A stretch of DNA of 64,000 bases from Prevotella sp. GTDB lineage: Bacteria > Bacteroidota > Bacteroidia > Bacteroidales > Bacteroidaceae. The position numbers were made by a program, and so were the translations under genes. This document shows, piece by piece, positions 661-63,391 of this stretch. The notes beneath the pieces were generated by a model. That model saw only the letters and a list, made by a program, of their open reading frames with translations, was not told the origin of the DNA and made no database searches. Numbering within the stretch: position 1 is the first letter of the stretch; every line of letters starts with the position of its first letter. The DNA is taken from the NCBI GenBank assembly GCA_017475005.1, contig JAFVGI010000066.1:1-64000 (forward strand), in the 5' to 3' direction.

Positions 661-743
661 TGTATGGTCAAAGGTCTAAGGTCAAAAGTCTAGGGTCAAT
701 TAACATTTCACACTATAAACGGTAAACTATAAACTGTAAACTA
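661..743. repeat. Degenerate intergenic repeats before queH
   Basis: Two flavours of short imperfect repeats fill the spacer: GGTCAAAGGTC-like units (about 664-698) and ACTATAAACGGTAAACT-like units (about 712-742). They end directly at the queH start. Related GGTCAA units occur inside queH itself. No promoter box is visible between the repeats and queH. Confidence 0.7.
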
Positions 744-745
744 GC

Positions 746-1375
746 ATGGTTCTTCTTCATTGCTGTTGCGCCCCATGTTCCGCAGCCATCATTGAATGGA
801 TGATGAATAATGACATCATCCCCACCTTATATTATTATAACCCCAACATATATCCGCAGGAAGAATATCTCATCCGCAAGAACGAACTCACGCGCTATGC
901 TACCGAGCTTGGTCTCACCGTAATTGATGACGACTACGACCACCAGCAGTGGGAAGACTGGGTATGCCACAGTCTCGGCACTTCGGAACTACAAGATTTC
1001 CCTGAGCGCGGCCCACGCTGCCTTGAATGTTTCAAGATGCGTCTGCTCGCTACTGCCCGCAAATGCCAGGAACTCGGCATCGAGCGTTTCACCACTACCC
1101 TCGCCTCTTCGCGTTGGAAGTCCCTCGACCAAATCAATGCTGCCGGCCAATGGGCAGCAGATATGGTGAACGGTCAACGGTCAACGGATGATGGTGAACA
1201 GGCTATGGTCACTTTCTGGGACAAGAACTGGCGCAAGGGAGGCCTTCAGGACCGTCGCAATGCCCTTCTAAAAGAGAAAGGCTTCTACAACCAGCTCTAC
1301 TGCGGCTGCGAGTTTTCGCAAAGACAAAATTTACAGAAAATTCAAAAAGAGGGAGATAATTCCTGTATTGATTAA
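746..1375 (+). CDS. queH: Epoxyqueuosine reductase QueH
   Basis: QueH (former DUF208) reduces epoxyqueuosine to queuosine in tRNA as the last step of Q synthesis; it replaces the cobalamin-dependent QueG. The 209-aa product starts with the hallmark HCCCAPC (residues 5-11), continues with RCLEC (C92, C95), FWDKNWRKGG near 157-166, and YCGCEFS (C186, C188); these cysteines fit the iron-sulfur sites of the family. Residues about 141-154 (VNGQRSTDDGEQAM) come from a GGTCAACGG repeat and look like an in-frame insertion. The last 15 codons overlap, on the opposite strand, the 3' end of the chimeric GltS ORF. Function is confident. Confidence 0.92.
   Translation: MVLLHCCCAPCSAAIIEWMMNNDIIPTLYYYNPNIYPQEEYLIRKNELTRYATELGLTVIDDDYDHQQWEDWVCHSLGTSELQDFPERGPRCLECFKMRLLATARKCQELGIERFTTTLASSRWKSLDQINAAGQWAADMVNGQRSTDDGEQAMVTFWDKNWRKGGLQDRRNALLKEKGFYNQLYCGCEFSQRQNLQKIQKEGDNSCID
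1164..1203. repeat. In-frame GGTCAACGG repeat within queH
   Basis: GGTGAACGGTCAACGG-type units, similar to the intergenic repeats upstream, encode a Gly/Asn/Ser-rich loop between two conserved QueH blocks. Confidence 0.65.
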
Positions 1376-2892: not shown

Positions 2893-2925
2893 TCTTAATT
2901 CATAATTCTTAATTCATAATTAAAT
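2893..2925. repeat. TTAATTCATAATTC repeat in nhaD leader
   Basis: Two and a half copies of a TTAATTCATAATTC-like unit directly before the ATG; a sister of the GAATTATGAATT repeat between pstS and the porin. Confidence 0.7.
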
Positions 2926-12760: not shown

Positions 12761-12790
12761 TTCTTCACCCTTCACTCTTCACTCTTCACT
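12761..12790. repeat. TTCACTC repeat in a promoter
   Basis: Units of the type CTTCACTCTTCACT, ending 8 nt before the -7 box at 12799, so the repeat covers the -33 zone. Confidence 0.7.
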
Positions 12791-17954: not shown

Positions 17955-19355
17955 ATGTCAAAACACAAGAAAAAAAACCGAAACTCCTTTAGCGGTTCCT
18001 TGGGATTTGTGCTTGCTGCAGCAGGAAGCGCTGTAGGACTAGGTAATATTTGGCGTTTCCCATACCTTGCAGCCCGCAATGGTGGAGGTGTATTCCTTAT
18101 GGTATATATCATTCTTGCCCTCACCTTCGGTTTCACCTTGCTTATTACAGAAGTAGCCATCGGCAGACGTTCACAACAGGGACCACTGACAGCCTATAAG
18201 TTCTTCAACAAGAAATGGGCCTTCGTAGGCTTCCTGTCGTTTATAATTCCATCGATAATATACCCATACTATTGCGTCATTGGAGGATGGGTACTGAAAT
18301 ATTTCATACAGTACCTGACATTCGAAAGTGCAGCAGCCGTAGAAGATTCCTTCTTCACAGGTTTCATCACTCAGCAATGGGCCCCAATAGGATATATGTT
18401 CTTCTTTGCTGCAACATGTTTCTTCGTAGTATATAGCGGAGTAGAAAAGGGTATTGAAAAATTCTCAAAGATAGTAATGCCCCTGTTGTTGGTATTGGTT
18501 GTATTTATCTGTATCTACTCACTCTTCATGGAGCATACAGATGCCAACGGAGTAACGCGTACCGGCTTAGAGGGTGCTGCTGTTTACTTTATTCCAAACT
18601 TTGAGGGCATCACAGTCACCAAATTCCTGAAGATTACTATGGACGCCTGCTCACAGCTGTTCTACTCTCTGAGTATCGCTATGGGTATCATGGTAGCTTA
18701 TGGCTCATACATGAAAAAGAATGTCAACCTGGGACAGGCCGTTGACCGCATCGAGATATGTGATACGACGATTGCTCTCCTAGCTGGTTTGATGGTTATC
18801 CCTGCTGTCTATGTCTTCATGGGAACAGAAGGAATGGGTGCTGGCCCAGGACTTATCTTCGTTGCCCTCCCAAAGATATTCCAATCTCTCGGAGCCTTCG
18901 GACCTATCATGGGATTAGCATTCTTCCTGCTTGTACTCTTTGCTGCCACAACCAGTGCCGTGAGCATTCTGGAGGCTTGTGTTTCAAGTGTTATGGATGC
19001 CTTCCATTGGAGCAGAACAAAATCTGTCTGCATCATGCAGGGAGGAGCACTCATCTCAAGTATTATCGTTTGTCTGGGATATAACGTATTCTACTTCGAA
19101 TACGAACTGCCTAATGGAGCAACAGCACAGATACTTGATATCTTCGATTATGTCTCTAACAACTTGTTGATGCCAGGTCTTGCAATACTGACCTGCTTAT
19201 TGTTTGGATGGATAATAAAGCCAAACCTCCTCATTGGAGAGATACGCCTGAATGGCTACAAATTCGTGCGAAAGAAAATGTATGTTGTTATGCTGAAGTA
19301 TATTGTTCCTATATTGCTCACAATACTTCTCATAGGAGCTTTCGGACTTTACTAG
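17955..19355 (+). CDS. Sodium-dependent transporter, NSS (SNF) family
   Basis: LeuT-like Na+:amino-acid symporter in the inner membrane. 466 aa, about 11-12 membrane segments; GSAVGLGNIWRFPYLAARNG near the start carries the unwound TM1 Na+/substrate site, and SQLFYSLSIAMGIMVAYGSY is the TM6 equivalent. AATTSAVSILEACVSSVMDA corresponds to the TM8 sodium site. Substrate cannot be read from sequence; tyrosine, tryptophan or leucine are common in the family. Single gene with its own promoter and terminator. Confidence 0.9.
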   Translation: MSKHKKKNRNSFSGSLGFVLAAAGSAVGLGNIWRFPYLAARNGGGVFLMVYIILALTFGFTLLITEVAIGRRSQQGPLTAYKFFNKKWAFVGFLSFIIPSIIYPYYCVIGGWVLKYFIQYLTFESAAAVEDSFFTGFITQQWAPIGYMFFFAATCFFVVYSGVEKGIEKFSKIVMPLLLVLVVFICIYSLFMEHTDANGVTRTGLEGAAVYFIPNFEGITVTKFLKITMDACSQLFYSLSIAMGIMVAYGSYMKKNVNLGQAVDRIEICDTTIALLAGLMVIPAVYVFMGTEGMGAGPGLIFVALPKIFQSLGAFGPIMGLAFFLLVLFAATTSAVSILEACVSSVMDAFHWSRTKSVCIMQGGALISSIIVCLGYNVFYFEYELPNGATAQILDIFDYVSNNLLMPGLAILTCLLFGWIIKPNLLIGEIRLNGYKFVRKKMYVVMLKYIVPILLTILLIGAFGLY

Positions 19356-19375
19356 TGTAAAGTGAAAAGTGAAGA
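19356..19375. repeat. AAAGTGAAAAGTGAAG repeat
   Basis: Short GTGAAAAGTGAA-type repeat directly after the stop codon; related units lie inside the cobalamin adenosyltransferase gene. Confidence 0.55.
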
Positions 19376-19417: not shown

Positions 19418-19449
19418 TTTAACCGTTAGACTTTAACCGTTAACCATTA

Positions 19450-25305: not shown

Positions 25306-25325
25306 GAGAGGTTAGAGGTTAGAGA
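25306..25325. repeat. GAGGTTAGAGGTTAGAG repeat
   Basis: Two and a half GAGGTTA units between ddl and metH. Confidence 0.55.
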
Positions 25326-28775: not shown

Positions 28776-29743
28776 GAGTTACCGATATCATAAAGAATGC
28801 AGAGGCCAATGGCCAGAAACGCTTTTCGTTTGAGTTGCTTCCACCGCTCAAGGGCGATGGCATACACTCCATCTTTGACGCCATCGACTCACTGATGCCT
28901 TACGACCCGGCATTCATCAACGTCACCTCCCACCGCGAGGAAATGAAATATACAGAGCGTCCCGACGGACTGATTGAGAAGCACGTGGTGCGCCGCCGCC
29001 CAGGAACTACTGGCGTGTGCGCTCGCATAAAGCAGAAATATGGCATTGAGGTAGTGCCTCACGTCATCTGCGGCGGGCAGACCAAGTATGACATCGAGGA
29101 CCTCCTGATAGACCTTGACTTCCTCAGCATCAAAAATGTCCTGGCTCTGCGCGGTGATGCTATGCCAGGCACGAGCCGCTTCACCCCCACCCCAGGCGGA
29201 CATGCGCATGCTGATGCTCTGGTGAAACAGATAAGCGATATGAACAAAGGCATCTTCATTGATGCCGAACCCAATACTAGCCATTGTTCTGAGTTCTGCA
29301 TCGGTGTAGCCGGATATCCTGAGAAACACGTGGAGTCACCCAATACAAAGACCGACATCGAGTATCTGAAGCAGAAGATTGATGCCGGAGCAGAATATAT
29401 CGCCACCCAGATATGCTATGACACGGACACCCTATTGCGTTTCCGCGACAGATGCAGGGAGGCTGGCATCAATGTCCCTATTCTCCCAGGCTTGAAACCT
29501 TTTGCCACAAAGACACAGCTGACGATACTTCCACAGACCTTTGCTGTAGATTTGCCACAGGAGTTGGTGGAGAAGGTTATGAGCTGCCGAAATAACGACG
29601 ATGTAAAGAAGGTAGGCATTGAATGGGGTATAAAGCAAGGCGAAACCCTCTTGAAGGAAGGCTTCGCCATATTACATTTCTACACCATGACCCGCACCCA
29701 GCAAGTCGAAGAAATTGTCAAAGAGTTAGGAATTAGGAGTTAG
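28772..29743 (+). CDS. metF: 5,10-methylenetetrahydrofolate reductase
   Basis: FAD-dependent TIM-barrel enzyme that supplies 5-methyl-THF for MetH. 323 aa; FSFELLPPLKGDG at the start, FINVTSHREE, ALRGDAMPG near 130, the PNTSHC and AGYPEKHVESPN blocks, and YIATQICYDTDTLLRFRDRC. The last codons (ELGIRS and stop) lie within a GGAATTAGGAGTTAGG repeat that continues downstream, so the present C-terminus and stop were set by a repeat. ATGA overlap with metH shows coupling. Confidence 0.94.
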   Translation: MRVTDIIKNAEANGQKRFSFELLPPLKGDGIHSIFDAIDSLMPYDPAFINVTSHREEMKYTERPDGLIEKHVVRRRPGTTGVCARIKQKYGIEVVPHVICGGQTKYDIEDLLIDLDFLSIKNVLALRGDAMPGTSRFTPTPGGHAHADALVKQISDMNKGIFIDAEPNTSHCSEFCIGVAGYPEKHVESPNTKTDIEYLKQKIDAGAEYIATQICYDTDTLLRFRDRCREAGINVPILPGLKPFATKTQLTILPQTFAVDLPQELVEKVMSCRNNDDVKKVGIEWGIKQGETLLKEGFAILHFYTMTRTQQVEEIVKELGIRS

Positions 29744-29790
29744 GAGTTCCATTCCCCATTCCTCATTCCTTATTCCTCATTTCTCATTAC
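29723..29790. repeat. AGTTAGGAATTAGG / CATTCCTCATTCC repeat at the metF end
   Basis: AGTTAGGAATTAGGAGT-type units followed by CATTCCTCATTCC-type units. Nearly the same compound sequence is found in the pstB leader (32813-32857). Confidence 0.8.
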
Positions 29791-30209: not shown

Positions 30210-30758
30210 TTACACAAATACGTCTTTAGTATTATTGTCAACATTCAGTTTTCTGGCGAGGATGAAGAGATAGTCGCTCAGTCTGTTGACATACCTCAGC
30301 ATTCCGTCAAGGTCACCATCCTCACTTTTCACTTTTAACTTTTCACTTTTAGCTTTTAGCATCGCCCGTTCTGCCCTACGGCAAACTGTGCGGCAGACGT
30401 GGGCAATAGCTGCTGCCCTGCTACCACCTGGCAGAATGAAGTGGAAGCGTTTGTCTTCTTGAGCTTCCTCCACGATAGCTGTGAGGCGGTCTATCTCAGC
30501 CTCCATGCTTTCTGCTGAAAGAGCTTTGTCAGTCTTTGCACCAGCCAAACTGCCACCGATGATAAAGAGGACCCTCTGTATCTCCGTCAGGAATCTTTTG
30601 TCTTTTTCATCCGTGCAGTAGGTCATCAGCAATCCCAACTGAGAATTCAGCTCATCGATGGTGCCGTAAGCCTCAAGACGTTCGCACTTTTTCTCGACTC
30701 GCCGGCCGTCAGCCAACGATGTCATTCCCTTATCACCTGTTTTTGTATATATCTTCAT
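30210..30758 (-). CDS. Cob(I)alamin adenosyltransferase, PduO type
   Basis: Converts cob(I)alamin and ATP to adenosylcobalamin. 182 aa from MKIYTKTGDKGMTSL; start chosen because the -7 box lies 9 nt upstream and the longer frame would begin before the promoter. TKTGDKG is the ATP-binding start, then RLEAYGTIDELNSQLG, FILPGG, CRTVCRRAERA and LRYVNRLSDYLFILAR. Between the last two blocks, residues about 134-148 (KAKSEKLKVKSEDGD) are encoded by an ACTTTTCACTTTTAAC repeat and form a Lys/Ser-rich loop. The 5' end and promoter are duplicated at 48081-48193. Fits with MetH and btu genes. Confidence 0.92.
   Translation of the reverse strand: MKIYTKTGDKGMTSLADGRRVEKKCERLEAYGTIDELNSQLGLLMTYCTDEKDKRFLTEIQRVLFIIGGSLAGAKTDKALSAESMEAEIDRLTAIVEEAQEDKRFHFILPGGSRAAAIAHVCRTVCRRAERAMLKAKSEKLKVKSEDGDLDGMLRYVNRLSDYLFILARKLNVDNNTKDVFV
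30321..30360. repeat. In-frame CACTTTTAACTTTT repeat in the adenosyltransferase
   Basis: Four CACTTTTAACTTTT-like units; same flavour as the AAAGTGAAAAGTGAAG repeat at 19356. Confidence 0.7.
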
Positions 30759-32787: not shown

Positions 32788-32812
32788 AGGGATGTGAATA
32801 TTTTTGATTTTT

Positions 32813-32858
32813 GAGTTAGGAATTAGGAGTTAGGAGTTCATTCCTCATTCCTCATTCT
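32813..32858. repeat. AGTTAGGAATTAGG / CATTCCTCATTCC repeat in the pstB leader
   Basis: Same compound repeat, in the same orientation, as at the end of metF (29723-29790). Confidence 0.8.
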
Positions 32859-34676: not shown

Positions 34677-34682
34677 AACAGT

Positions 34683-35666: not shown

Positions 35667-35682
35667 TGTTTTATTTGATTTT

Positions 35683-35715
35683 GAATAATGGATTATGAAT
35701 TATGAATTAAATTAG
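35683..35715. repeat. ATTATGAATTATGAATT repeat
   Basis: Fills the spacer between the porin stop and pstS; the porin stop codon lies at its edge. Confidence 0.65.
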
Positions 35716-36757: not shown

Positions 36758-36762
36758 CGGCG

Positions 36763-36793
36763 AAAAAAACACGCGGGCAATACCGCCCGCGTG
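36763..36793 (-). terminator. Terminator of the siroheme/sulfate operon
   Basis: CACGCGGGC (36770-36778) and GCCCGCGTG (36785-36793) with a T-run at 36763-36769 on the minus strand, 70 nt after the cysH stop. Confidence 0.8.
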
Positions 36794-36862
36794 GTAAATT
36801 AAATGCCTAATTTATGTGATGCCATGTGGCAAAACTTTGGTATATGTCCCATTTTTTCTTGG

Positions 36863-38871: not shown

Positions 38872-38874
38872 AAT

Positions 38875-38911
38875 TTCAATGTGAAATGTGAAACGTAAAA
38901 TGTGAAATATT
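38875..38911. repeat. GTGAAATGTGAAACG repeat
   Basis: Three to four units of a TGTGAAATGTGAAACG-like repeat between cysD and cysN. Confidence 0.65.
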
Positions 38912-38917
38912 CAACTA

Positions 38918-41094: not shown

Positions 41095-42056
41095 CGCTGC
41101 TGATATTCTTTTGCGTAATACGTTATGATATACTGTGCACCGGCACGTTTGATGGCAATGAGGCTTTCGAATACCACACGCTGTTCGTCAAGAAATCCTT
41201 GCAGGGCAGCGGCTTTTAGCATGGCATACTCGCCACTGACCTGATATGCCACCATCGGCACTTGCGGAAACTTCTCTGCCGCACGGGCTATGATGTCGAG
41301 ATAAGGTATTGCCGGCTTCACCATCGTCCAGTCGGCACCTTCTTCTATATCCGCACCGATTTCCTCAAGGCCCTGACCATGTGTGCGATAGTCCATCTGA
41401 TAGGTCTTCCTGTCGCCGAATGACGGAGCAGAGTCGGCGGCATCGCGGAACGGGCCATAGAATGCGGAGGCATATTTGGCAGAGTATGCCAGCACCTTTG
41501 TCTTGCCGTCAAGTCCTGCCTCATGCAGCCGATGCTTGATGGCTTCCACCTGACCATCCATCATGGCAGAAGGGGCTACAAAGTCGGCACCGGCCTTTGC
41601 ATGCTGATATGCCATCTCCGCCAGCAGGGGCAGGGTGGTATCGTTATCCACATCGTGATGATGCAGCAGTCCGCAATGACCGTGACTGGTATATCCGCAA
41701 AGGCATACATCAGTGAAAACGACAGTCTGCGGCGAGGCTTGTTTTATTGCCCTCACGGCACGTACTATCAGGCTGTCGTCGGCATAGGCGGCAGTACCGC
41801 GCTCGTCCTTCACGTCGTCACTGACAACGCCAAAGAGCAGCACCTTGTCAATGCCTAATCTTTTTACCTCAAGTGTATCTTCTACGAGGGTATCAATGCT
41901 ATAGCGGTTAATACCCGGCATTGTGGGAACAGGTTCCACAATACCCTCTCCTTCCACCACGAAATACGGGTAGATGAAGTCTTGGACGCTGAGGGCCACA
42001 TCGGCATACTTATCCCGTGTGGTCTGGTCTGTCCTGAATGTTCTGAATCTTTTCAT
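41085..42056 (-). CDS. hemB: Delta-aminolevulinic acid dehydratase (porphobilinogen synthase)
   Basis: Condenses two ALA to porphobilinogen. 323 aa; zinc cysteines in DVCLCGYTSHGHCG, Schiff-base lysines in LAYSAKYASAFYGPFR and WTMVKPAIPYLD, and DFVAPSAMMDGQV. The start overlaps the 3' end of the hemC/SUMT/hemD gene by 47 nt. Confidence 0.95.
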   Translation of the reverse strand: MKRFRTFRTDQTTRDKYADVALSVQDFIYPYFVVEGEGIVEPVPTMPGINRYSIDTLVEDTLEVKRLGIDKVLLFGVVSDDVKDERGTAAYADDSLIVRAVRAIKQASPQTVVFTDVCLCGYTSHGHCGLLHHHDVDNDTTLPLLAEMAYQHAKAGADFVAPSAMMDGQVEAIKHRLHEAGLDGKTKVLAYSAKYASAFYGPFRDAADSAPSFGDRKTYQMDYRTHGQGLEEIGADIEEGADWTMVKPAIPYLDIIARAAEKFPQVPMVAYQVSGEYAMLKAAALQGFLDEQRVVFESLIAIKRAGAQYIITYYAKEYQQRWA

Positions 42057-44016
42057 TTTGTCGGCTTTTTAAATGTTGGGCGGTAATCCTGCCGCGTGTC
42101 ACGTATTCGATATGTGATGGCAGGTCACCATATGTTGTAATGAAATTGTCGATGGTAGATGGTGATGTAAACACCACGCGCTGGATGTTTGACAGATTGA
42201 TGCGTCGGACATAACGGGGGTACACATTATGATATACCGTGAGTATCTTGACATCAAAACCTAATGCTTTGATACCCTCCGGAATAATATCGAGAGCAAG
42301 ATCAGAGCGTGGTATGAGTACCCGTCCGCGAGGCTGGCGGCTGAAATAGTCAATGACTCCGTAGCTGTCGTCTATCTCCGTCTGCTCCACATTCTCTGCT
42401 CCTGCGGTCTTCAGGGCTTGTGTCGTAGATGGGCCTATCGAAACAATTCGTCCCGCGAAGCCGCCCTTCCAATGTTTCACGGCATAGCGGCTGGTGAATA
42501 GCAGGTAGTCATAACTCTCGCGAGGTGGCACTGCATAGTCGATGGGCTTTATCTCTATCAATGGCGTATGGATGTAGTCGGGATTGGGACACACCAAACC
42601 TGTATAGAGTGTCCTGCGGATATTTGAGGCACCCTGATGGCGGAGTCTCGCTACGTCGCCAACCAATGCGATGACTGGAAGTTTGACCTTTCTTTTAGTC
42701 GCTTCGCTTTGTAAAAGCGTTCCGTAGGGCCGAGCGGATCTTTGACCTTTGACCTCAGACCTCAGACCTTCGACTGTTGTCTCAAAGGTTTCTTCGTCGG
42801 GAAGTGATACATTATGTACCAGCAATACCGGTGTAGTGTCTGCCCACCCTTCTGCCTGTAGTGCCTCACCTATCTGTGCCAGCCGTGCGCCACCCATGTA
42901 ATAGACAATCGTCTCGGTATTGGGGACAATGGGCTGTGCGGAATGTCCATTCACGAAAGCCACACTGGAACTGATGCCTCTTTGTGTCAGGCTGACTCCT
43001 GTGGTAGCAGCTAATGCCGATGCTGTCGTAATGCCGGGAATAACGGACACCTCTACAAGGTTACTCTGCAGGTATTCTATCTCTTCTCCTGCATGTCCGA
43101 ACACCATAGGGTCGCCTCCTTTCAGGCGAACGACTTCCTTGCCTTCCCTGGCAGCCTTGAGCAGCAAGCGATTTATGTCGTCTTGTTCTGCATGGTGGCA
43201 ACCGCTACGCTTTCCGACATAGTATTTCTCTGCACTCAACGTATCGAGAAAGTCTTTTCCTATCAGGTCGTCGTAGAAGATGATGTCGGCATCTTGCAGT
43301 GCCTTGACAGCCTTGACAGTCAACAGTTCAGGGTCTCCGGGACCGAAGCCCACAAGTGTCACCTTTCCCTGACGATGCAAAACATCCTCGCGCTTGAAGA
43401 CTGTCTTCAGTTCTTCCCTACCCCGCAAAGCAGTGATAGCCAGATACCCTTGCAGCGGATGTGTCTCGAAGGGCAGCACCTCGCTGATGTCATTCTCCAT
43501 TCCTAACCTCTTCAGGGCACAGGTGGCAACGATGGCAGCATCAATCTTACCATCGCGTACCTGACTGACGCGTTCTTCTATGCAGCCTCGGATGCCTACG
43601 ACCTTCAAATCGGGACGCAGGGCCAGCAATTCCTTGCGGCGCATTGCAGAACTGGTACCAACGGTACTGCCTGCCGGCAACTGTTCTAATGTCAGGTGGT
43701 CGCGGCTTACGAGTGAATCGCTCTGGTCGAACGGAGGGAACAACGCTATCACCTCCAACCTTTCATCCAACGGATAAGGCAGGTCTTTGGCGGAGTGTAT
43801 GGCAATGTCGGCACGCTTGCTGATTAGGGCTTCGTCAAGTTCCCGCGTGAACATATCGGCAGGTGCCTCGCCGTCAAGCAGCGAAATGTGCTGGTGCCGG
43901 TCACCATACGACGACAGTGTCTCCAGACGATAGTCTATCTCCGGAAACTTCTCCATCGCCTCTCTGACCTGTAATTGCGAGAGGGGGCTTTGTCGTGCTA
44001 TAATCCGTATGCTCAT
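42010..44016 (-). CDS. Trifunctional fusion: HemC-like (truncated), uroporphyrinogen-III methyltransferase, HemD
   Basis: 668 aa. Residues 1-about 208 are hydroxymethylbilane synthase domains 1 and 2 (IIARQSPLSQLQV, HSAKDLP, GTSSAMRRKELL, GIRGCIEERV). The third HemC domain, which holds the cysteine binding the dipyrromethane primer, is absent; the chain passes straight to SUMT (218-about 458: VGFGPGDPELLTVKA, RLKGGDPMVFGHAGEE, VIPGITTASALAATTG, YYMG). Residues about 462-668 are uroporphyrinogen-III synthase (LLFTSRYAVKHW, VFTSPSTIDNF). A repeat-derived segment (about 417-443) interrupts the end of SUMT. The gene would turn porphobilinogen into precorrin-2, the siroheme precursor. How the HemC part works without its usual cofactor domain is unclear. 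Confidence 0.88.
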   Translation of the reverse strand: MSIRIIARQSPLSQLQVREAMEKFPEIDYRLETLSSYGDRHQHISLLDGEAPADMFTRELDEALISKRADIAIHSAKDLPYPLDERLEVIALFPPFDQSDSLVSRDHLTLEQLPAGSTVGTSSAMRRKELLALRPDLKVVGIRGCIEERVSQVRDGKIDAAIVATCALKRLGMENDISEVLPFETHPLQGYLAITALRGREELKTVFKREDVLHRQGKVTLVGFGPGDPELLTVKAVKALQDADIIFYDDLIGKDFLDTLSAEKYYVGKRSGCHHAEQDDINRLLLKAAREGKEVVRLKGGDPMVFGHAGEEIEYLQSNLVEVSVIPGITTASALAATTGVSLTQRGISSSVAFVNGHSAQPIVPNTETIVYYMGGARLAQIGEALQAEGWADTTPVLLVHNVSLPDEETFETTVEGLRSEVKGQRSARPYGTLLQSEATKRKVKLPVIALVGDVARLRHQGASNIRRTLYTGLVCPNPDYIHTPLIEIKPIDYAVPPRESYDYLLFTSRYAVKHWKGGFAGRIVSIGPSTTQALKTAGAENVEQTEIDDSYGVIDYFSRQPRGRVLIPRSDLALDIIPEGIKALGFDVKILTVYHNVYPRYVRRINLSNIQRVVFTSPSTIDNFITTYGDLPSHIEYVTRGRITAQHLKSRQNEKIQNIQDRPDHTG
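42741..42774. repeat. In-frame TTTGACCTCAGACC repeat
   Basis: TTTGACCTTTGACCTCAGACC-type units encode GLRSEVKGQRS between two conserved SUMT blocks; related to the GGTCAAAGGTC units at 664. Confidence 0.7.
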
Positions 44017-44948
44017 ATTACGTCTTTCATTTTTTGTCCTTCATCCTTCTTCCATCTTACTTCTTCCTTCGTACGAAGTTTTCTCCTGCGAAGGATATCC
44101 TGCAGTTCTGCGATTTCTTCTTCTATGATAGCCTCGGCATGCGCTATCTCGCTCTGGCGCACAGAGATATTTTTGCGAACACGCTGCTCCACATCACGTA
44201 TGTTATAAAGGGTGACATTGGGTAGTCTGCCGACACTCGGAGCGATGTCACGGGGAAAGGCCAAATCGATGGCAAGCAGTGACTTGTTTACAGGCAAATC
44301 GTCTGCTTGTATCAAAGCATGTGGTGCGGAGGTGGCACTGATGAGGATATCTGTGTCTGCGAGGAAACGCTGTTTGTCGTGCAACTGATACACCTCTATA
44401 CCCAATGGATCTGCCAGCGCGTGTGCCTTTATCTGACTGCGGTTGGCAAGAAATACGAGCCGCGCCCCTTTGTTCTTCAGGAATTTCAGGATGTCGGACG
44501 TCAGTTTGTTGACACCGATGATGGTAATGCGGCTCTTACTCAGATCGATATGCTCCTGCTGCATTATCTCTATAGCAGCCAGCGAATGGCTCACAGCGCC
44601 GCGTGATATCTCTGTCTCAGTACGGACACGTTTCCCTACTTGCAAAGCGCAGGCAAAGAGTTTATTCATCTCAGCACTGAGTCGATACAGGCTCATAGCC
44701 TGCTGATAGCATTCCTTCACCTGTCCCTGAACCGCCTTTTCGCCTATCAGGGCCGATTCGAGTCCCGACGTTACGCGAAACAGATGTCGGGCCACATCGT
44801 CAGGAACATCGCCGTCACCATAGTATAGCTCCACACGATTGCATGTCTGCAGCAGTACCGACCCTGCTGGACGGCACAACCCGCGAAAGTATGCTTCGCG
44901 CTCTTCTAACGATGTATTTTGTTGGTTAACTGATTTGTATGCTATCAT
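44013..44948 (-). CDS. hemA: Glutamyl-tRNA reductase (short form)
   Basis: First committed step of the C5 route; NADPH reduces glutamyl-tRNA to glutamate-1-semialdehyde. 311 aa: catalytic Cys in LLQTCNRVELYYG (residues about 32-44), SALIGEKAVQGQVKECYQ, ISRGAVSHSLAAIEI, NADPH domain with ITIIGVNKLTSDIL, IDLAFPRDIAPSV. The long spinal helix is present but the C-terminal dimerisation domain is missing (family length is often above 400 aa). The last 15 or so residues (TKEEVRWKKDEGQKMKDVI) come from a CTTCATCCTTCTTCC repeat. It overlaps the precorrin-2 dehydrogenase by 23 nt and the fusion gene by 4 nt. Confidence 0.9.
   Translation of the reverse strand: MIAYKSVNQQNTSLEEREAYFRGLCRPAGSVLLQTCNRVELYYGDGDVPDDVARHLFRVTSGLESALIGEKAVQGQVKECYQQAMSLYRLSAEMNKLFACALQVGKRVRTETEISRGAVSHSLAAIEIMQQEHIDLSKSRITIIGVNKLTSDILKFLKNKGARLVFLANRSQIKAHALADPLGIEVYQLHDKQRFLADTDILISATSAPHALIQADDLPVNKSLLAIDLAFPRDIAPSVGRLPNVTLYNIRDVEQRVRKNISVRQSEIAHAEAIIEEEIAELQDILRRRKLRTKEEVRWKKDEGQKMKDVI
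44027..44070. repeat. CCTTCATCCTTCTTCC repeat forming the HemA C-terminus
   Basis: Pyrimidine-rich degenerate units on the plus strand; same family as 4551-4592 and the btuC start. Confidence 0.6.
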
Positions 44949-45381
44949 GCTCTATACTTTCTTTTATTCTGTCTCTCACCCTGATGCTTCGCTTGACATC
45001 CTTACTGTCTGAGGCGACGCTGATTGTCAAATCGCCATTGCGATAAATGGCTGGCGAGGTAAAGTCACATTCGGCAGGCGAATCACAGACGCTTGTCAGG
45101 ATGCCGCGTTGCCGGGCCAGAGAATGGATGTGGTGGTTCAACTCGTGGTTGCCGGTGCAAACAAAGAGTAGGGTCACACCGTCCAAGTCGCTTTCTGCAA
45201 AGTCACGTTCTTCCCAGCTGAATGGCAGCGCCTTGATGCCATCGCTCATCTCGGGGGCAATGACTGTGGCACGCTCGGTAAAGCGACTCAATATTGTCGC
45301 CTTATGAGTAGCCACCTTGCCGCCGCCGACTATCAGTATGCGAGCATCACTAATGCGTATGTTAATAGGAAGAAAATCCAC
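44926..45381 (-). CDS. Precorrin-2 dehydrogenase (siroheme synthase N-terminal domain)
   Basis: 151 aa, Met8/SirC/CysG-N family: oxidises precorrin-2 to sirohydrochlorin with NAD and may insert iron. MDFLPINIRISDARILIVGG GK-type Rossmann start (IVGGGKVATHK), LLFVCTGNHELN, VCDSPAECDFTSPAIYRNGD and ISVASDSKDVKRSIRVRDRI. It starts with GTG. No separate chelatase is present in this window, so this protein may do both steps (inference). Confidence 0.88.
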   Translation of the reverse strand: MDFLPINIRISDARILIVGGGKVATHKATILSRFTERATVIAPEMSDGIKALPFSWEERDFAESDLDGVTLLFVCTGNHELNHHIHSLARQRGILTSVCDSPAECDFTSPAIYRNGDLTISVASDSKDVKRSIRVRDRIKESIEHDSIQIS

Positions 45382-45392
45382 TTTTCAATAAA

Positions 45393-45426
45393 CTCTTACC
45401 TCTCACCTCTTACCTCTCACTTCTTC
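45393..45426. repeat. CTTACCTCTCACCTCTTACC repeat
   Basis: Three units of a TTACCTCTCACC-type repeat between the sulfite reductase and precorrin-2 dehydrogenase, reaching into the last codons of the former. Confidence 0.65.
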
Positions 45427-47747
45427 CTTATCACCACTTTCCAGTAATCGTCCACCTTTTCAGTAGAAAGAACCTCATGCCCTTCCTGACGCACACTGCC
45501 TGGCACGTTCTGTATTGGCTGCCCATCATCAAGCAGTATCTCCAACAGCTGTCCGCTCTGCATAGTGGAGAGTTCTATCTTCGTCTTCACGAAATTCATC
45601 GGACACGCCACACCTCTAAGGTCTTTTTTGAGAGAAGAGGAATCCCCTCCCTTACCCTCCGGAGGTAGGGAGTCTCCACTTTGGGGAGATTTAGAGGGGG
45701 GCACCTTAAACTGCAGCGAGTCATCCATTGAGGCATACAGCTCATTCACCTTTGCTGCCAACGCGTCTATCTGCTCTCGGTCGTTTGACAACGATTCAGC
45801 ATGACGGGCCTTCTCGACAATAGTCTTGAAACCAGCATTCACAATGCCGGCATTGATAAACAGCTCTTCAAAGTTGGTATATACTTCGTCGTCCGTACGA
45901 GGGTCGGCACCACGGGTGACGAGCAACATACGGGAAGCAGAGAATACTATGTCACGCAGCAGTTGTTCCTCGTCGACACCCGGCTGTGCCAATGCTGCCT
46001 GCTTTTCCTTGATGGTGGCCTGATCCAGTTCTATGATGTCGAACAGACCTGCAGAACATTCGGCCTTGCCGTGACTGGTCAACGAGAATACTTCTTCGGC
46101 ACCCCAGTCGAAGTAATGGTTCTTGTCATCCTCAAACGAAGGCACATCCCGATAGCGGGCAATCAACTCCTTGATAACATCGGCACCCTCTTTGCGTACA
46201 AAGGCATCGTAACTGTCATACTGGTCTTTCACCGTGAGGTAATGGCCCAGATAATCAACTACGAACTGCGGTATGTCTCTTGCTGCCAGATAGCCAAGGG
46301 CCTCTGCCAGTTCTGTCTTGCCGTTTACGCGAGCCCATACGGTATATGCCGGATAAGGATGGTCTCCTACTCTGCCGATACGTCCGCTGAAGCCCAAGTC
46401 GCTCCACGCATTCTGGGCACACGAGTTAGAGCAGCCGTTGATATTTATCTTCAGGTCGGGCAGTTTGTCGAGGTCCAGTGTGCTTTTCTCCAACTGTCTG
46501 CGAATACCCTTTACCAATCCCTTTGGCAGACAGATGCCCAAGCGGCAGGTGTCGGCGCCGGTACATGATGTGAGGTTATTGAGTATGACAGGCACATCGA
46601 GCGACAGACCCAATGACTTGAAGAACTGATAGACATTTGGCAGATACGCCTCTGGAATATTTCGCAGCTGCATATTCTGACGTGGCGTGAAGCGGATGAC
46701 GTCATTGCCAAATTCCTTCAGGAAGTCTGCTATCTTTTCAAAGACATCGGGGGACGTATTGCCATGCAGGAACGGTATAACGGCGTAGAAGCCTTCGCCT
46801 ACGCTCTGCTTTTGTGCATAGCGCTGCTTCCATGTAGCAAATGCCTCACTCTCGTCCACTACAGGAGCAAATGACGGCTTTTTATATTCCTGCTGTAACA
46901 GGGCCGGCGTAAAGTCCAGCGTCTCATCGTCAACCAGTTTGTCATACTCCTCCTTATAGAGTCTCCGCGTCTCTTCCTCGCCGTTCTTGTAAAATATATA
47001 ACGTATGCGAGCCTTATGACGGTTCTTTCTGTTGCCGTTCAGGTTAAAGAAGTTCTTTGCAGCCTTTGCCGCACGGAACAGGTCTTTCTCGGGCAGGAAG
47101 TCGAACACCTGCCACCCCTTGTGCGGATTGCTCGCCACACTACCGCCCAGCAGCACCCTGAAGCCACGCTGTCCGCCCCTTATCTGCGGAATAAGTCCTA
47201 GGTCTGCCACTAGTGAGAAGTTAGCATCTTCCTCATTCATGTCGAAGGCAATCTTCAGCTTTCGGGGCATTGACCACGAATCCTTCTCGGCAATCAGTCG
47301 CGTTGTCAGTCCTATGGCATATGGATAGGGGTCGAAAGTCTCCCGGCTGCTGATGCCTCCCAGCTCGTTCACCAGCATGTTGCGTACGGTATTTCCGCCG
47401 CCGCCCTGTGTGGCAAGGCCTGCTTCCTTCAGTGCAAGTAGCGCCTCGGTAGCCTGGTCGATGCTCACGTCGTGTATCTGCACCTCCTGACGCGTCGTGA
47501 TATGTATGTGCGAGCAGTTCACCAGCCGTCCCACCTCAGCCACACGGCGCAGCTGACGCGGCGTAATGAGTCCGCCCGTGCAGCGTATGCGTAACATATA
47601 GTGGCCGTCCTGCCGCTGTTCGTAAATACCCATCGGTACACGGTTCGATTTCAACTGTGCGCCACTTATTTCTCCTTTTTTATATTGCTCTATGAGCCGT
47701 TGATTGTACTGTATGTCTGCTGTCAGACTCTCTGGTATGATATACAT
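45417..47747 (-). CDS. Sulfite reductase hemoprotein with C-terminal helical and TusA-like domains
   Basis: 776 aa. Residues 1-about 540 form a ferredoxin-type sulfite/nitrite reductase: two half-repeats, THIHITTRQEVQIHDV-like siroheme contacts, TSCTGADTCRLG and NGCSNSCAQ supplying the four cysteines of the [4Fe-4S]-siroheme site. A following helical region (about 565-690; SASRMLLVTRGADPRTDDEV) resembles a HEPN-type bundle. The end (about 707-776; DLRGVACPMNFVKTKIELS) is a TusA/SirA-like sulfur carrier fold with its CP motif. Between the last two lies a repeat-coded linker (PPSKSPQSGDSLPPEGKGGD). Reduces sulfite to sulfide; the electron donor is not encoded nearby. First gene of the operon. 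Confidence 0.88.
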   Translation of the reverse strand: MYIIPESLTADIQYNQRLIEQYKKGEISGAQLKSNRVPMGIYEQRQDGHYMLRIRCTGGLITPRQLRRVAEVGRLVNCSHIHITTRQEVQIHDVSIDQATEALLALKEAGLATQGGGGNTVRNMLVNELGGISSRETFDPYPYAIGLTTRLIAEKDSWSMPRKLKIAFDMNEEDANFSLVADLGLIPQIRGGQRGFRVLLGGSVASNPHKGWQVFDFLPEKDLFRAAKAAKNFFNLNGNRKNRHKARIRYIFYKNGEEETRRLYKEEYDKLVDDETLDFTPALLQQEYKKPSFAPVVDESEAFATWKQRYAQKQSVGEGFYAVIPFLHGNTSPDVFEKIADFLKEFGNDVIRFTPRQNMQLRNIPEAYLPNVYQFFKSLGLSLDVPVILNNLTSCTGADTCRLGICLPKGLVKGIRRQLEKSTLDLDKLPDLKININGCSNSCAQNAWSDLGFSGRIGRVGDHPYPAYTVWARVNGKTELAEALGYLAARDIPQFVVDYLGHYLTVKDQYDSYDAFVRKEGADVIKELIARYRDVPSFEDDKNHYFDWGAEEVFSLTSHGKAECSAGLFDIIELDQATIKEKQAALAQPGVDEEQLLRDIVFSASRMLLVTRGADPRTDDEVYTNFEELFINAGIVNAGFKTIVEKARHAESLSNDREQIDALAAKVNELYASMDDSLQFKVPPSKSPQSGDSLPPEGKGGDSSSLKKDLRGVACPMNFVKTKIELSTMQSGQLLEILLDDGQPIQNVPGSVRQEGHEVLSTEKVDDYWKVVIRKK
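45645..45702. repeat. In-frame CCCTCCGGAGG repeat in the sulfite reductase gene
   Basis: Contains the palindrome CCTCCGGAGG and two GGGAG/CTCCC arms; codes for a Pro/Ser/Gly-rich linker between domains. Confidence 0.7.
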
Positions 47748-47772
47748 ATTTTTTTATTTGTGTTTGCGGATG

Positions 47773-47780
47773 CAAAGGTA
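47773..47780 (-). promoter_or_regulatory. -7 box of the sulfite reductase-siroheme-cys operon
   Basis: Reverse strand TACCTTTG, 25 nt before the ATG at 47747. The nine genes after it run without another clear box to the terminator at 36763. Confidence 0.6.
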
Positions 47781-47964
47781 GGCACTTTTCTCTCCACCCA
47801 CAATCCCACGCACAGAGTATTTTATATACCAAACCTATGTGATATGCCATACCTAACGTTAATAACGGCAGGCTCGGCAACAAGACGATGCACACCTCCC
47901 GCACCCCTGTTGCTTAGGCAGAAAAGACAGTTATTAGTTTTTTCGGTCGAATATAGACATTTAT

Positions 47965-48083: not shown

Positions 48084-48193
48084 ATTCCCTTATCACCTGT
48101 TTTTGTATATATCTTCATTGCGGGGACAAAATTACGATTAAACGAGCAAAAAACCAAATTTTTATTTGAGTTTTTTCGAGTGAGAGTAGTTTC
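48081..48193 (-). pseudogene. Duplicated promoter and first 13 codons of the cobalamin adenosyltransferase
   Basis: Matches 30721-30834 over 113 bp with about four differences (one 1-bp deletion). It contains the AATCGTAATTTTG promoter, the ATG at 48116-48118 and codons for MKIYTKTGDKGMT; then the frame runs into foreign sequence and stops after 18 residues (TMSMT, stop). Confidence 0.8.
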
Positions 48194-48210
48194 GACGAAG
48201 TCAAAGGTAC

Positions 48211-48246
48211 GAAAAATTCCGTACTCCCCAAAGAAAGTACGGAAAA
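48211..48246 (-). terminator. Terminator of the S41 peptidase gene
   Basis: TTCCGTACT (48217-48225) and AGTACGGAA (48236-48244) followed on the minus strand by TTTTT. Confidence 0.65.
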
Positions 48247-51514: not shown

Positions 51515-51550
51515 AATAATTTATAATTAATAATCAAGAATTAAGAAAGT
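51515..51550. repeat. AATTAATAATCAAGAATTAAG repeat
   Basis: AT-rich degenerate units upstream of the divergent promoters. Confidence 0.5.
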
Positions 51551-51769: not shown

Positions 51770-51801
51770 AGTTTTTTCTTGCATTTCTCAAAACTTAATC
51801 G

Positions 51802-51809
51802 TACCTTTG
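51802..51809 (+). promoter_or_regulatory. -7 box of the cobalamin-uptake operon
   Basis: TACCTTTG inside AATCGTACCTTTGCA, as at ddl. Confidence 0.65.
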
Positions 51810-51829
51810 CACCCGCAAACGCGATTTGG

Positions 51830-51975
51830 TAAATGGGAATCAGGTGTAAGACCTGAGCTGTTCCTGCAGCTGTAAGCCCCTTTTTACCTGTTACAACAAG
51901 CCACTGACCTTTGTCGGGAAGGTGTAACAGAGGGGGTAAGCCAGAAGACCGACCTTTTTGCGAAGACAATATCGC
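51830..51975 (+). promoter_or_regulatory. Cobalamin riboswitch
   Basis: Conserved pieces in order: AATGGGAATCAGGTG, AAGACCTGAGCTGTTCC, TGCAGCTGTAAGC, B12 box AGCCACTGACC (51899-51909), TCGGGAAGG, and AAGCCAGAAGACCGACC. GCGAT (51831) and ATCGC (51971) can close the base. It sits between the promoter and the btuB ATG and should repress the uptake operon when cobalamin is plentiful. Confidence 0.92.
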
Positions 51976-60260: not shown

Positions 60261-61271
60261 ATGGGCAAGACGCATTCTTCCTTCTTCCTTCTTACATCAT
60301 CCATCATACTTCTTCTGTTGGTGCTCTTTGCGTGCAACCTACTTTTCGGCTCCGTGAGCATTCCTTTCATGGAGGTGTGGAATATCCTGACTGTAGGTGA
60401 TGCGGAGAAGGAGTCGTGGCGATATATAGTACTTGAGTCTCGGCTTCCCCAAGCCATTACAGCTATTCTTTGTGGTGCGTCACTTGCTGTCAGTGGTTTG
60501 TTACTACAGACCTCATTCCGCAATCCCCTTGCAGGTCCTTCCATTCTCGGCATCACCAACGGAGCCTCGCTGGGTGTGGCTATCGTCATGCTTATTGCCG
60601 GTGGCACAGTGGCAGGCACAGGCGGCAATATCGCCGTAGTGCTGGGCGCACTCATAGGTTCTCTGGCAGTGATAGTGCTTCTGCTATTTATGGCATCGAT
60701 AATACACTCAAACATAATGCTCCTCATCGTGGGCATCATGGTCAGCTTCCTCGTATCCTCGATAGTGTCTCTGACATATATCTTTGCCAATGCCGACAAT
60801 GTTCACGCCTACGTCATGTGGGGCATGGGCAGTTTTTCCGATGTCACCGTCGAACAGTTGCCTTGGTTTGTCAGCGTCTCACTATCTGCACTCCTGTTGG
60901 CTGTGACACTCGTAAAACCTCTCAATGCATTACTCCTTGGCGACGACTACGCCCAGAACCTTGGTATCAACATCCATCGCACCCGCTGGATGATACTCCT
61001 CTCCACAGGCTTACTGACTGCCATTGCAACAGCCTACTGCGGTCCTGTGGCATTCCTCGGACTTGCAACACCCCACATAGCACGTCTCATGCTCCGCACG
61101 GGCAACCACATACAGTTATTGCCCACCACCATCCTCACTGGAGCCGTAATGGCATTAGCATGTAACCTGCTCTGCATCATCCCGTCGGTCATGATGCCCC
61201 TCAACGCCGTAACCCCCATCTTCGGTGTCCCCGTGATACTCTATATCATCATCAGAAGAAGAGACTACTAA
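60261..61271 (+). CDS. btuC: Cobalamin ABC transporter permease BtuC (FecCD family)
   Basis: 336 aa, about ten membrane segments; VLESRLPQAITAILCGASLA, GLLLQTSFRNPLAGPSILGI, GASLGVAIVML, MVSFLVSSIVSL and CGPVAFLGLATPHIARLMLR are diagnostic FecCD/BtuC blocks. The first 18 residues (MGKTHSSFFLLTSSIILL) are largely coded by a pyrimidine-rich repeat. No ATPase (btuD) follows; the operon ends here and the next gene is on the other strand. Confidence 0.88.
   Translation: MGKTHSSFFLLTSSIILLLLVLFACNLLFGSVSIPFMEVWNILTVGDAEKESWRYIVLESRLPQAITAILCGASLAVSGLLLQTSFRNPLAGPSILGITNGASLGVAIVMLIAGGTVAGTGGNIAVVLGALIGSLAVIVLLLFMASIIHSNIMLLIVGIMVSFLVSSIVSLTYIFANADNVHAYVMWGMGSFSDVTVEQLPWFVSVSLSALLLAVTLVKPLNALLLGDDYAQNLGINIHRTRWMILLSTGLLTAIATAYCGPVAFLGLATPHIARLMLRTGNHIQLLPTTILTGAVMALACNLLCIIPSVMMPLNAVTPIFGVPVILYIIIRRRDY
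60274..60317. repeat. TTCTTCCTTCTTACATCATCC repeat at the btuC start
   Basis: Reverse complement contains GGATGATGTAAGAAGG, also found at 4576-4591 in an intergenic repeat. Confidence 0.65.
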
Positions 61272-61273: not shown

Positions 61274-61330
61274 TACACTCCTCCTTTAGTGTTCCTTTAG
61301 TCCTCCTTTACCCCTCCTTTAGTCTCCTTT
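61274..61330. repeat. CCTCCTTTAGTGTTCC repeat
   Basis: Five imperfect CCTTTAGTCCTCC-like units just after btuC. Confidence 0.65.
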
Positions 61331-61339
61331 GTATATTAT

Positions 61340-61416
61340 AGCAAGGGGGTAGCAAGGGGGTAGCAAGGGGGTAGCAAGGAGGTAGCAAGGAGGTAGCAAG
61401 GGGGTAGCAAGGGGGT
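61340..61416. repeat. 11-bp tandem repeat, seven copies
   Basis: Unit AGCAAGGGGGT; copies 4 and 5 read AGCAAGGAGGT, the others are identical. Fills the spacer between convergent btuC and the ResB/CcsA gene. Confidence 0.9.
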
Positions 61417-61429
61417 GATGAGACCACCA

Positions 61430-63391
61430 TTAGGCATAGCTGTGCATGCCTCCCAGAAGGTAGTTTACTCCAAAATAAGTGATTATGACAACCAGGAAGG
61501 CTGCAACCATGTAGAGGTGGTAAAAACGCGGCTTACTAAAAATGCCTACTGAAACCTTGTGGAGCGGTACAGCATATACCATTAGTGTGATGAGTGCCCA
61601 CGACTCTTTAGGATCCCACGACCAGTAGTTGCCCCACGACACGTTTGCCCATACAGCACCTAGGAAGATGCCGATGGCAAGAAGGAATACAGCGGGATAT
61701 AACAGCAGTTGAGAAAGGGCGGTGAGCTTTTCTAATTGAGAATTGAAAATTGATAATTGAAAATTGAAAATTATCAGTGCATATATTCCAATGAACATTT
61801 GGAGGGCGAAGAGTGCGTAGGCGCACATTACTGTCATGACATGCAATGAAAGCAATGGTGATTGGAGCACGGGCATCAGCGGAGTAATCTGCGAACTGTT
61901 GCCAGCCATCATTGCTACTAACAGACAACATAATGCAGCTAACGGTCCTAAGACAATGATGATGCGTACCTTACGAAAGAGAATCACAGTCATCACTATC
62001 AGCACCCATGCCATGAAGAGCATTGTTTCATAGCCGTTGCTGACAGGAATATGTCCGCTGAGCCACCAGCGCAAGCCAAGTTGCAGCGTGATGAGAATGG
62101 GGAATTTTATGCTTCGAAGATCGTTATAGAAAATCTCAGCCTTTGTCTTGCTGTCACTTGGCAGCAAATCGCCAATCATCGCATGCTGGAACAGTTTTAT
62201 CTTCGCTATAATCTCCATAGCGCGGTCGTGCTGACCTGTCACAATAGCCTCCGTCAGAAAATCCATCGACTGCTTAATGAAGAACTGCTCCTTGACAGGG
62301 ATTTCCTTCGGTAGCACTTGCCCGCCAGGAGGGAACCATTCAACAGGGGAGTGAGAGGGGAGTGAGAGAGGAGTGAGAGAGGATAGTTTATATGGAAAGA
62401 TTTTTGTGAATTGTCCGTTATAGAACATCTCTGCTATAGCATAACGTTCTTCAGCACCTTTCTTTTTTGGATTATTGAGAAGCAGTTCCTTCTCCCACGG
62501 CGAATAGTATATCATCCAACTGAAGAATATCTCATCAGCCGAATATCCATGCCACGAAGCGCTGCCAGTCATCTTGATAGCAAAGTCCGTAGCAACAGTA
62601 TTGAGGGGACAGATGCGGTTATTATAAAGAACATTTATAGTTCCCATGCGGTGAGCAATATCCTTGGGAACAACGGGGAGATTCTCTTCTGCCGTTGCCG
62701 TCATACTTATCAACAGCAATGCCACCGTTATCGCCTTCCGATAGAGTGTCCGCATCTGTGTCTTTTTTGACAGCAATGTAGCAATGATACCTAATAGGAG
62801 CATCAAATACCCACAATAGGTGATGGCAATGCCGTAAGGGTCGTAACTTACGCCTAATGTCACACCTTCGCCATCAGAGTCATAGCTTTTCTGAAACAGG
62901 CGATAGCCTTCAACATTACCGATATGGTTCATCGAAACCAGCACCTCGCCCTCCTTGCTCCCAATTACGCTCTGATAATCCATCGGAGCATCGGTACCAG
63001 GATAGTTTACAATACGGAATTCCTTCAGCGTTATGGAGTTGGCGGGTGACAGATTGCAGGATTGGTTCACACGCAGGTGTATTGTGTCGCTACTGGAGGT
63101 AAGATGGGTGACAAAAGCGCCAATCAGTATCACCACAAATGCCATGTGGAGCGTAAAGACAGCTAACCGTTTATAGAGTTTTCTCTTTATGAAACAAGCA
63201 CACGATACTACTGTTAGCACACCCCACAGGGCAGAGAACCACCATGCGCCGTAGATATTCTCGGCAACGAACTCCGTGCCGAAAAATTTCTCTATGACAG
63301 TGGCAAGCCCTATACACACCACGATGAGTGCATATAGGGCGAAGAAAACTTTATTTTTATATTGATTCAATAAAAAAGACAATTTGGTCAC
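61430..63391 (-). CDS. Cytochrome c biogenesis protein, ResB-CcsA fusion (System II)
   Basis: 653 aa starting with GTG. Residues about 1-215 are ResB/CcsB-like (N-terminal helices, periplasmic strand region with IRLRVNQSCNL-type part), residues about 225-400 a periplasmic-type insert, residues about 425-653 CcsA with the tryptophan-rich haem motif WGNYWSWDPKESW. It delivers and attaches haem to exported c-type apocytochromes. Two repeat-coded inserts are seen: KLSSLTPLSLPSHSP (about residue 337-351) and IIFNFQLSIFNSQLEKL (about 539-555) between membrane helices. It overlaps the next gene, a c-type cytochrome, by 35 nt, which fits its role. Confidence 0.88.
   Translation of the reverse strand: MTKLSFLLNQYKNKVFFALYALIVVCIGLATVIEKFFGTEFVAENIYGAWWFSALWGVLTVVSCACFIKRKLYKRLAVFTLHMAFVVILIGAFVTHLTSSSDTIHLRVNQSCNLSPANSITLKEFRIVNYPGTDAPMDYQSVIGSKEGEVLVSMNHIGNVEGYRLFQKSYDSDGEGVTLGVSYDPYGIAITYCGYLMLLLGIIATLLSKKTQMRTLYRKAITVALLLISMTATAEENLPVVPKDIAHRMGTINVLYNNRICPLNTVATDFAIKMTGSASWHGYSADEIFFSWMIYYSPWEKELLLNNPKKKGAEERYAIAEMFYNGQFTKIFPYKLSSLTPLSLPSHSPVEWFPPGGQVLPKEIPVKEQFFIKQSMDFLTEAIVTGQHDRAMEIIAKIKLFQHAMIGDLLPSDSKTKAEIFYNDLRSIKFPILITLQLGLRWWLSGHIPVSNGYETMLFMAWVLIVMTVILFRKVRIIIVLGPLAALCCLLVAMMAGNSSQITPLMPVLQSPLLSLHVMTVMCAYALFALQMFIGIYALIIFNFQLSIFNSQLEKLTALSQLLLYPAVFLLAIGIFLGAVWANVSWGNYWSWDPKESWALITLMVYAVPLHKVSVGIFSKPRFYHLYMVAAFLVVIITYFGVNYLLGGMHSYA
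61734..61774. repeat. In-frame AATTGAAAATTGA repeat in CcsA part
   Basis: Four AATTGAAAATTGA-type units encode the loop/helix segment FNFQLSIFNSQLE. Confidence 0.75.
62345..62383. repeat. In-frame GAGTGAGAGGG repeat in ResB-CcsA gene
   Basis: Three GGGAGTGAGAG-type units encode SSLTPLSLPSHSP. Confidence 0.75.

Follow-up and report, generated by a model that had tools for sequence, protein, structure and literature searches.

Tandem repeats with a unit of 7 bp are known from several bacterial lineages, and for those of Calothrix we take STRR to be the name in use. Together with the heptanucleotide long simple sequence repeats (LSSRs; Mrazek 2007), the Calothrix repeats are described (via the passages of PMC4679880 and PMC4692102 drawn on here) as head-to-tail arrays that occur in excess and lie mainly outside genes. 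TAACTGA repeats have been reported from Beggiatoaceae, cyanobacteria and five Bacteroidetes (PMC4679880), and G-rich heptamers (GGGAATC and GGGGA(C/T)T) from Xanthomonas and Nostoc, in which the G-rich strand is sense directly 3' of stop codons and antisense directly 5' of genes (PMC4692102), while the palindromic elements of Rickettsia (~150 bp) are reviewed as residing in frame inside unrelated genes (PMC10969869). The arrays described here come from a 64,000-nucleotide stretch (hereafter the window) of a Prevotella sp. genome (GCA_017475005.1, contig JAFVGI010000066.1, positions 1 to 64,000), and they belong with the known heptamer repeats of Nostoc, Xanthomonas and Beggiatoaceae. They are short, imperfect, head-to-tail runs of heptanucleotides that exceed chance expectation, share a lexicon of units and unit variants between loci, have non-random ends and a polarity towards genes, differ between sister species, and replace protein loops in frame.

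Their likeness to the LSSRs and the Calothrix repeats, as far as the passages used go, lies in the 7-bp head-to-tail unit, the excess and the mainly extragenic position, and the whole-unit length polymorphism of LSSRs was seen here too (7 of 38 comparisons between relatives). With the TAACTGA repeats they share gene-border sites, occasional placement in open reading frames (ORFs) at the protein periphery, lineage specificity and 7-nt length differences between strains; with the G-rich heptamers, the polarity and the variation of length and sequence between sister species; and with the Rickettsia elements, the placement of a short dispersed repeat in frame within unrelated protein genes. They differ from the LSSRs and Calothrix repeats in that a single Prevotella-like sample holds 49 unit types, in short imperfect arrays with non-random end phases and shared variants; from the TAACTGA repeats in their many units and in the in-frame loop replacement seen by orthologues (TAACTGA doublets: 0 in the 652,608-b sample); from the G-rich heptamers again in the many unit types (no GGG tract in any of the 45 types inspected out of the 49, unlike G-quadruplex heptamers); and from the Rickettsia elements in being direct 7-bp repeats with a median length of 33 bp. 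The many-unit lexicon, the shared variants, the locked ends and the in-frame loop replacement have no counterpart in the passages of PMC4679880, PMC4692102 and PMC10969869 drawn on here; what the present comparison adds is that loci have a lexicon and its variants in common, that array ends are non-random, that sister species differ in lexicon, and that orthologues show in-frame loop replacement.

The window's own genome (G000; 2.36 Mb in 72 contigs, 81% complete) was represented by a sample of 652,608 b that includes the window and, for one count, by a smaller set made of the window and 20 sampled stretches (452,608 b). A sister species (G098) contributed 580,000 b and other genus members further stretches, the relatives compared at the same sites being ~86-97% identical in DNA over the region. 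By the metH protein, the closest named relatives are Prevotellaceae/Prevotella bins; one of them comes from a sheep sample, and three bear RUG or UBA names (RUG presumably standing for rumen). A sequence-only reading of the window had claimed short arrays throughout, with units of 7-14 bp; the arrays proved to be real and are missing from shuffled sequence, but their main unit is 7 bp. Self-comparison of the window at fixed lags gave 10 near-perfect segments at lag 7, 6 at lag 14 and at most 2 at any other lag between 2 and 40, against a lag-7 mean of 0.0 in ten shuffles, and Tandem Repeats Finder (TRF) reported 52 rows, 30 of them with a period of 7, 14 or 21. The period was a multiple of 7 in 89 of the 148 merged arrays of the smaller set (3 of 9 in one shuffled copy). 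When the cut-off was relaxed a little, 117 heptad arrays were called in the large sample, a density of 17.9 per 100 kb, against 0 in one shuffled copy of it; the density in G098 is close (103 arrays, 17.8 per 100 kb). Per 100 kb, lag-7 segments number 12.6 for G000 and 12.8 for the relatives, other lags from 2 to 30 staying at or below 1.1 in G000 except lag 11 (2.8), with 0 at all lags in the shuffled copy; in 49,977 b from three distant loci of Prevotella, lag 7 reaches 6.0 and is exceeded by lags 9, 8 and 14, and in 120,484 b from nine loci of other Bacteroidales it reaches 3.3. Arrays of 11-bp units form a second, rarer class in this genome, with TCCTCCTTTAG and TAGCAAGGGGG (7.1 copies, 97% matches) at 61279..61416, and the unit also departs from 7 bp at window positions 16198 (12 bp) and 31728 (6 bp).

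The 117 arrays of G000 draw on 49 unit types, counted without regard to strand or rotation. Pairs of arrays with a common unit number 185, against 24.6 expected (maximum 41 in 500 trials with letters shuffled within units), and units free of C or G make up 92 of the 117 (65.7 ± 4.3 expected). The common units are mostly C-free on one strand (AGTTAAG, AGTGAAG, AATTGAN, GGTTAAC, GGTCAAA, AATTATG and their variants), and within families of at least three arrays the same single-step variants recur across loci in 61 pairs, as opposed to 14.6 ± 3.7 (maximum 30 of 1000) under a simple mutation model. Many units share a loose skeleton, which is only moderately above the null, at 6.03 bits when weighted by arrays (mean 4.79, maximum 5.39 of 60) and 4.94 bits by distinct units (mean 4.18, maximum 4.62 of 60). 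Furthermore, the lexicons of G000 and G098 differ (chi 107.7; permutation mean 68.3, maximum 97.5 of 2000), as typified by AAAGGTC (3 versus 16), AAGAGTG (8 versus 1) and AATTATC (7 versus 0).

The ends of the arrays are non-random as well. Arrays were simulated with randomly placed ends between their real flanks and called again by the same detector; the end-phase sums of G000 (109.1 at the 5' and 113.3 at the 3' end) exceeded the maxima of 400 such runs (77.2 and 83.4), as did the 5' sum of G098 (77.8; maximum 63.0). Ten of the 15 AATTGAN arrays end in AATT, 8 of the 12 GGTTANN arrays start at one phase (the TA of GGTTA), and a two-unit AGTGAAR run, met 26 times in the G000 sample, is followed by AA in 13 of 13 cases where the period stops; two of the seven unit families (ARTTAAG and GGTCNNN) have no clear preference. 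Spacers make up 8.5% of the G000 sample, yet they hold 93 of the 117 arrays, and for 61 of these 93 the nearest feature is the 3' end of a gene. Read along its purine-rich strand, a spacer array tends to have the nearer gene at its 5' side, by 61:26 in G000 (p 2e-4) and 57:17 in G098 (p 3e-6), the median distance to the gene on that side being 2 bp. At gene 3' ends the purine-rich strand is sense (43 versus 18 in G000, 37 versus 9 in G098) and at 5' ends antisense (20 versus 12 and 20 versus 8). An orientation set by replication was considered and rejected, the orientation of the purine strand not tracking the GC skew around it (53:38 where the skew is negative, 14:12 where it is positive).

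Arrays in spacers change rapidly. Among relatives, the same sites differ in the presence, length and unit of their arrays, in line with the active process that the sequence-only reading had suspected, and so do the lexicons reported above. In 38 orthologous-site comparisons (19 with G098, 13 with G193 and 6 with G359), 13 pairs were equal in length (two with a different unit), 7 were longer or shorter by whole multiples of 7 bp, and 18 differed otherwise, their arrays being swapped, lacking or changed in other ways. The upstream array at 12762..12790 is TCTTCAC in the window and in the more distant G109, and an equal-length TTCCTAA-type array stands in its place in G193 and G098; the ATTATGA array at 35678..35709 is one unit shorter in G098, and the AATGTGA array at 38878..38908 one unit longer in G359. 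On a wider scale, searches for a degenerate four-unit pattern were positive for 198 of the 249 genomes of the genus, where overlapping hits run from 0 to 508 per genome, and for 74 of the 149 examined in the order, usually with few hits; since the pattern fixes the skeleton, it maps presence and not lexicon, and its reversal is no independent control, as units of the A[AG]TT[AG]A type fit both directions; its counts are often equally high. Single-contig members of the genus may be rich (G045, 106 hits) or empty (G016 and G024), so assembly does not explain the distribution. Three exact copies of AGTTAAG occur in only 4 of 198 genomes across the phylum, the window's own included (14 hits versus 2 for the reversed control), which makes exact units a poor wide probe.

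Arrays inside called genes account for 24 of 117 in G000 and 27 of 103 in G098 (ORFs from simple greedy calling, not curated annotation). Nine genic cases had been put forward for the window, with the proposal of a filter that keeps frame-compatible arrays in surface loops and termini. Eight of them do encode residues, in metF no more than the final six, ELGIRS, in place of the GLRL or GLHL ending of relatives; the array at the end of sulfite reductase (45393..45424, minus strand; 25, 32 or 39 bp, or replaced, as in G359) overlaps only the final bases and the stop codon, and the C-terminus is unchanged. In queH, a GGTCAAC array (1165..1187, plus strand) encodes residues 140-148 of a hypervariable loop, the aligned loop stretch measuring 37 residues in the window, 44 in G098 and 62 in G193, and the array falls in a gap of the alignment to the QueH structure 9dco. 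The AAAAGTG array of the cobalamin adenosyltransferase gene (30322..30360, minus strand) encodes residues 175-188 of an inter-helix loop and is the same in G193, varied in G098 and represented by different filler in UBA7017 and RUG12014. At the SUMT-HemD domain junction of hemC-SUMT-hemD, an AAAGGTC array (42737..42774, minus strand) is common to the window, G193 and G098, and G157, G099, G088, G374 and G302 have a short GQLGS-type linker. What had been read there as one array is a composite, the heptad array being accompanied by a stem-loop-like, non-heptad insertion of ~45 bp (42691..42736, minus strand), which adds 15 residues in frame, is absent from G193 and G098, and was found only in the window among the genomes compared. 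Stem-loop-like elements starting with CTTTYAGTCG are also present at L147:16736, L021:14726 and L140:13068, and three of the four adjoin heptad arrays. The hemA array (44037..44070, minus strand) gives a C-terminal tail of 14 extra residues in the window, G193 and G359 and none in G157, G374, G088 and G099; the btuC array (60275..60315, plus strand) lies at the N-terminus, in frame with a putative start ATG at 60261; and ResB-CcsA carries an AATTGAA array in a loop of its CcsA part (61734..61772, minus strand, residues 540-553) and an 11-bp in-frame array in its linker (62348..62383, minus strand, residues 337-348). The residues were assigned by protein alignment, from which fused, wrong or empty alignments (G149 and G302 at hemA, G359 and G149 at hemC-SUMT-hemD) were left out.

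These placements (at sites where solved homologues of QueH, adenosyltransferase and CcsA are gapped or variable, at a domain junction, or at the termini of MetF, HemA and BtuC), together with the spacer bias, support the proposed frame filter. Neither of the contrary outcomes named by the sequence-only reading appeared: relatives either lack the array-encoded peptides or carry others, and shuffled sequence yields no heptad arrays. Because variable loops and termini tolerate arrays, one and the same loop can carry unrelated heptad-encoded peptides in sister species; moreover, similar peptides (NSQLS, SSLFTLHSSL, SEELRVKSE, GQRSKVKG) recur in unrelated frames of the G000 and G098 samples. All 8 length comparisons of queH, adenosyltransferase, hemC-SUMT-hemD and hemA with G098, G193 and G359 gave a difference divisible by 3, which was zero in three. 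As multiples of 3 follow if both genes are intact, we take them as evidence of tolerance and not of a preference of the process. An avoidance of in-frame stops (consensus units would give stops and the actual units do not, with 0 real stops of 9 in G098) was not used, the test being circular because genic arrays were defined by open frames.

To account for these observations, we lean, without great assurance, towards dispersed heptad cassettes that are copied among sites, change by 7-bp slippage, and are tolerated in genes only at loops and ends where the frame is open. A pool of 7-bp units particular to the genome would have spread as short arrays to many sites; the likely route, which we infer along with the enzyme or repair path behind it, is that one array is copied to another, or into a break, by ectopic conversion or repair. 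The arrays would then gain or lose whole units by slippage, and they would be tolerated in spacers, chiefly right at gene borders, and in genes only where the frame stays open and a loop, a domain linker or a terminus can vary. Local replication slippage alone, by which 7-bp repeats arise de novo at each site under the same coding filter, is a possible but doubtful alternative: here the 7-nt step would suit the polymerase, and the lexicon would reflect a sequence preference of slippage and mutation. Loops of 7 nt may also escape mismatch repair. The whole-unit length changes between sisters, as well as the loose skeleton of many units, would be in keeping with it. It also agrees with reports, cited in the passages used of PMC4679880 and PMC4692102, that where repeats of 5-11 nt abound, heptamers are in most genomes the commonest kind, which is explained there by the polymerase. 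Yet shared variants, preferred end phases, a same-length unit swap and a sister lexicon difference are unexpected of purely local growth, and the 42-bp gains inside genes imply either 7-bp steps that break the frame or a single step of greater length. Several results also weigh against copied cassettes. A strong mutation bias could raise the null for shared variants above that of our model (transitions weighted twofold); unit order is only weakly common between loci (9 pairs at 28-mers versus a mean of 3.0 and a maximum of 8 of 50), and sharing of 18-, 21- and 24-mers between G000 loci stays within the null range; and the 3' end-phase sum of G098 (63.8) is below its simulated maximum (69.7). 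The sites compared included no clean empty one flanked by a target duplication, therefore insertion as such is not demonstrated. Two candidate drivers do not track the repeats: of 16 repeat-rich and 16 repeat-poor genomes, 11 and 3 have the transposase family Y1_Tnp, and 10 and 13 the reverse transcriptase family RVT_1 (sets picked from pattern-hit counts, the rich genomes tending to be larger). Y1_Tnp is absent from G000 and four other rich genomes and RVT_1 from G000, and both are missing from some rich genomes that are more than 90% complete; as neither is required, no driver was identified among these two families. As regards miniature inverted-repeat elements or transposons, which would leave a target-site duplication and have a linked transposase, the observations were the lack of a clean empty site and, for Y1_Tnp as the one transposase family searched for, its absence from G000.

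Selection for regulatory elements (promoter-proximal or 3' untranslated binding or stop sequences, of which the gene copies are spill-over) seems unlikely, even though the arrays hug gene borders (median 2 bp), nearest to gene 3' ends in the majority of spacer cases (61 of 93), and one window array directly precedes a sequence resembling a Bacteroidetes promoter. A like polarity for the heptamers of Xanthomonas and Nostoc, in the passages used of PMC4692102, speaks for it too; however, unit identity is often lost at orthologous sites, 24 of 117 and 27 of 103 arrays lie inside called genes, and a single genus includes genomes with anything from 0 to 508 overlapping hits of the pattern. We consider it quite improbable that a dedicated activity makes or moves the arrays by telomere-like synthesis or cassette conversion. 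Such an activity would write 7-bp units out of a set particular to the genome, give the arrays template-defined ends and extend them along the purine-rich strand away from gene borders, and the enzymes of these bacteria would thereby continually gain new ready-made loops and tails. An artefact of assembly or gene calling in metagenome bins, to which a 72-contig genome of 81% completeness might seem prone, is hardly credible, as it is contradicted by the same arrays in separately assembled relatives and by the 106 pattern hits in the single-contig G045.

As to the window's spacers, at least 15 had been said to hold arrays; with any period (TRF score of at least 30) the number is 16, and heptad arrays occur in 11. 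Upstream of queH, GGTCAAA and ACTATAA arrays (666..743) are largely absent from G193 and G098; other spacer arrays are TAATTCA (2893..2921), TTAACCG (19419..19449), AGAGGTT before metH (25307..25324) and AATAATT (51515..51547), and an AGTGAAA array on the plus strand (19354..19373) begins inside a stop codon and is followed by a GTGAAGAATT end. A GAGTTAG array, covering the last six codons and the stop of metF, is joined to a CATTCCT array at 29723..29788, the left edge of a ~495-bp stretch missing from four relatives; the GAGTTAG/TCATTCC composite at 32800..32857, absent in G098, has an identical 26-mer. This pair is among those in which two sites had been claimed to share a flavour: the match was recovered for it (29723 and 32813), for 664 and 42741 and for 19356 and 30321, but not for 4551 and 60274, where TRF made no call at 4551 and the sequence looks too degenerate to count. 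Apart from the heptads, 30855-39340 and 42010-47880 are 95-97% identical to G193, G098 and G359, and the stretch before 30855 ~86-88%; by their identity levels the former look like recombination tracts between species. A ~90-bp element (48127-48216; no tRNA, no Rfam match) has ~79-89% matches in many genus genomes, with neighbouring copies in G173, G389 and G344, and its first 67 bases are repeated at 30768-30834 (98.5%). A dispersed repeat at 2616-2693 takes 17 of the 27 own-genome matches of a 2-kb query, and a cobalamin riboswitch (RF00174, 78.5 bits) lies at 51790-51971, amid B12 and tetrapyrrole genes.

This genus bears on why heptamers dominate the longer simple repeats of bacteria. With hit numbers from 0 to ~500 per genome, distinct lexicons in sister species and non-random ends, the generating process is open to strain comparison and genetics, and the in-frame cases show that core enzymes can acquire new loops from low-complexity DNA.

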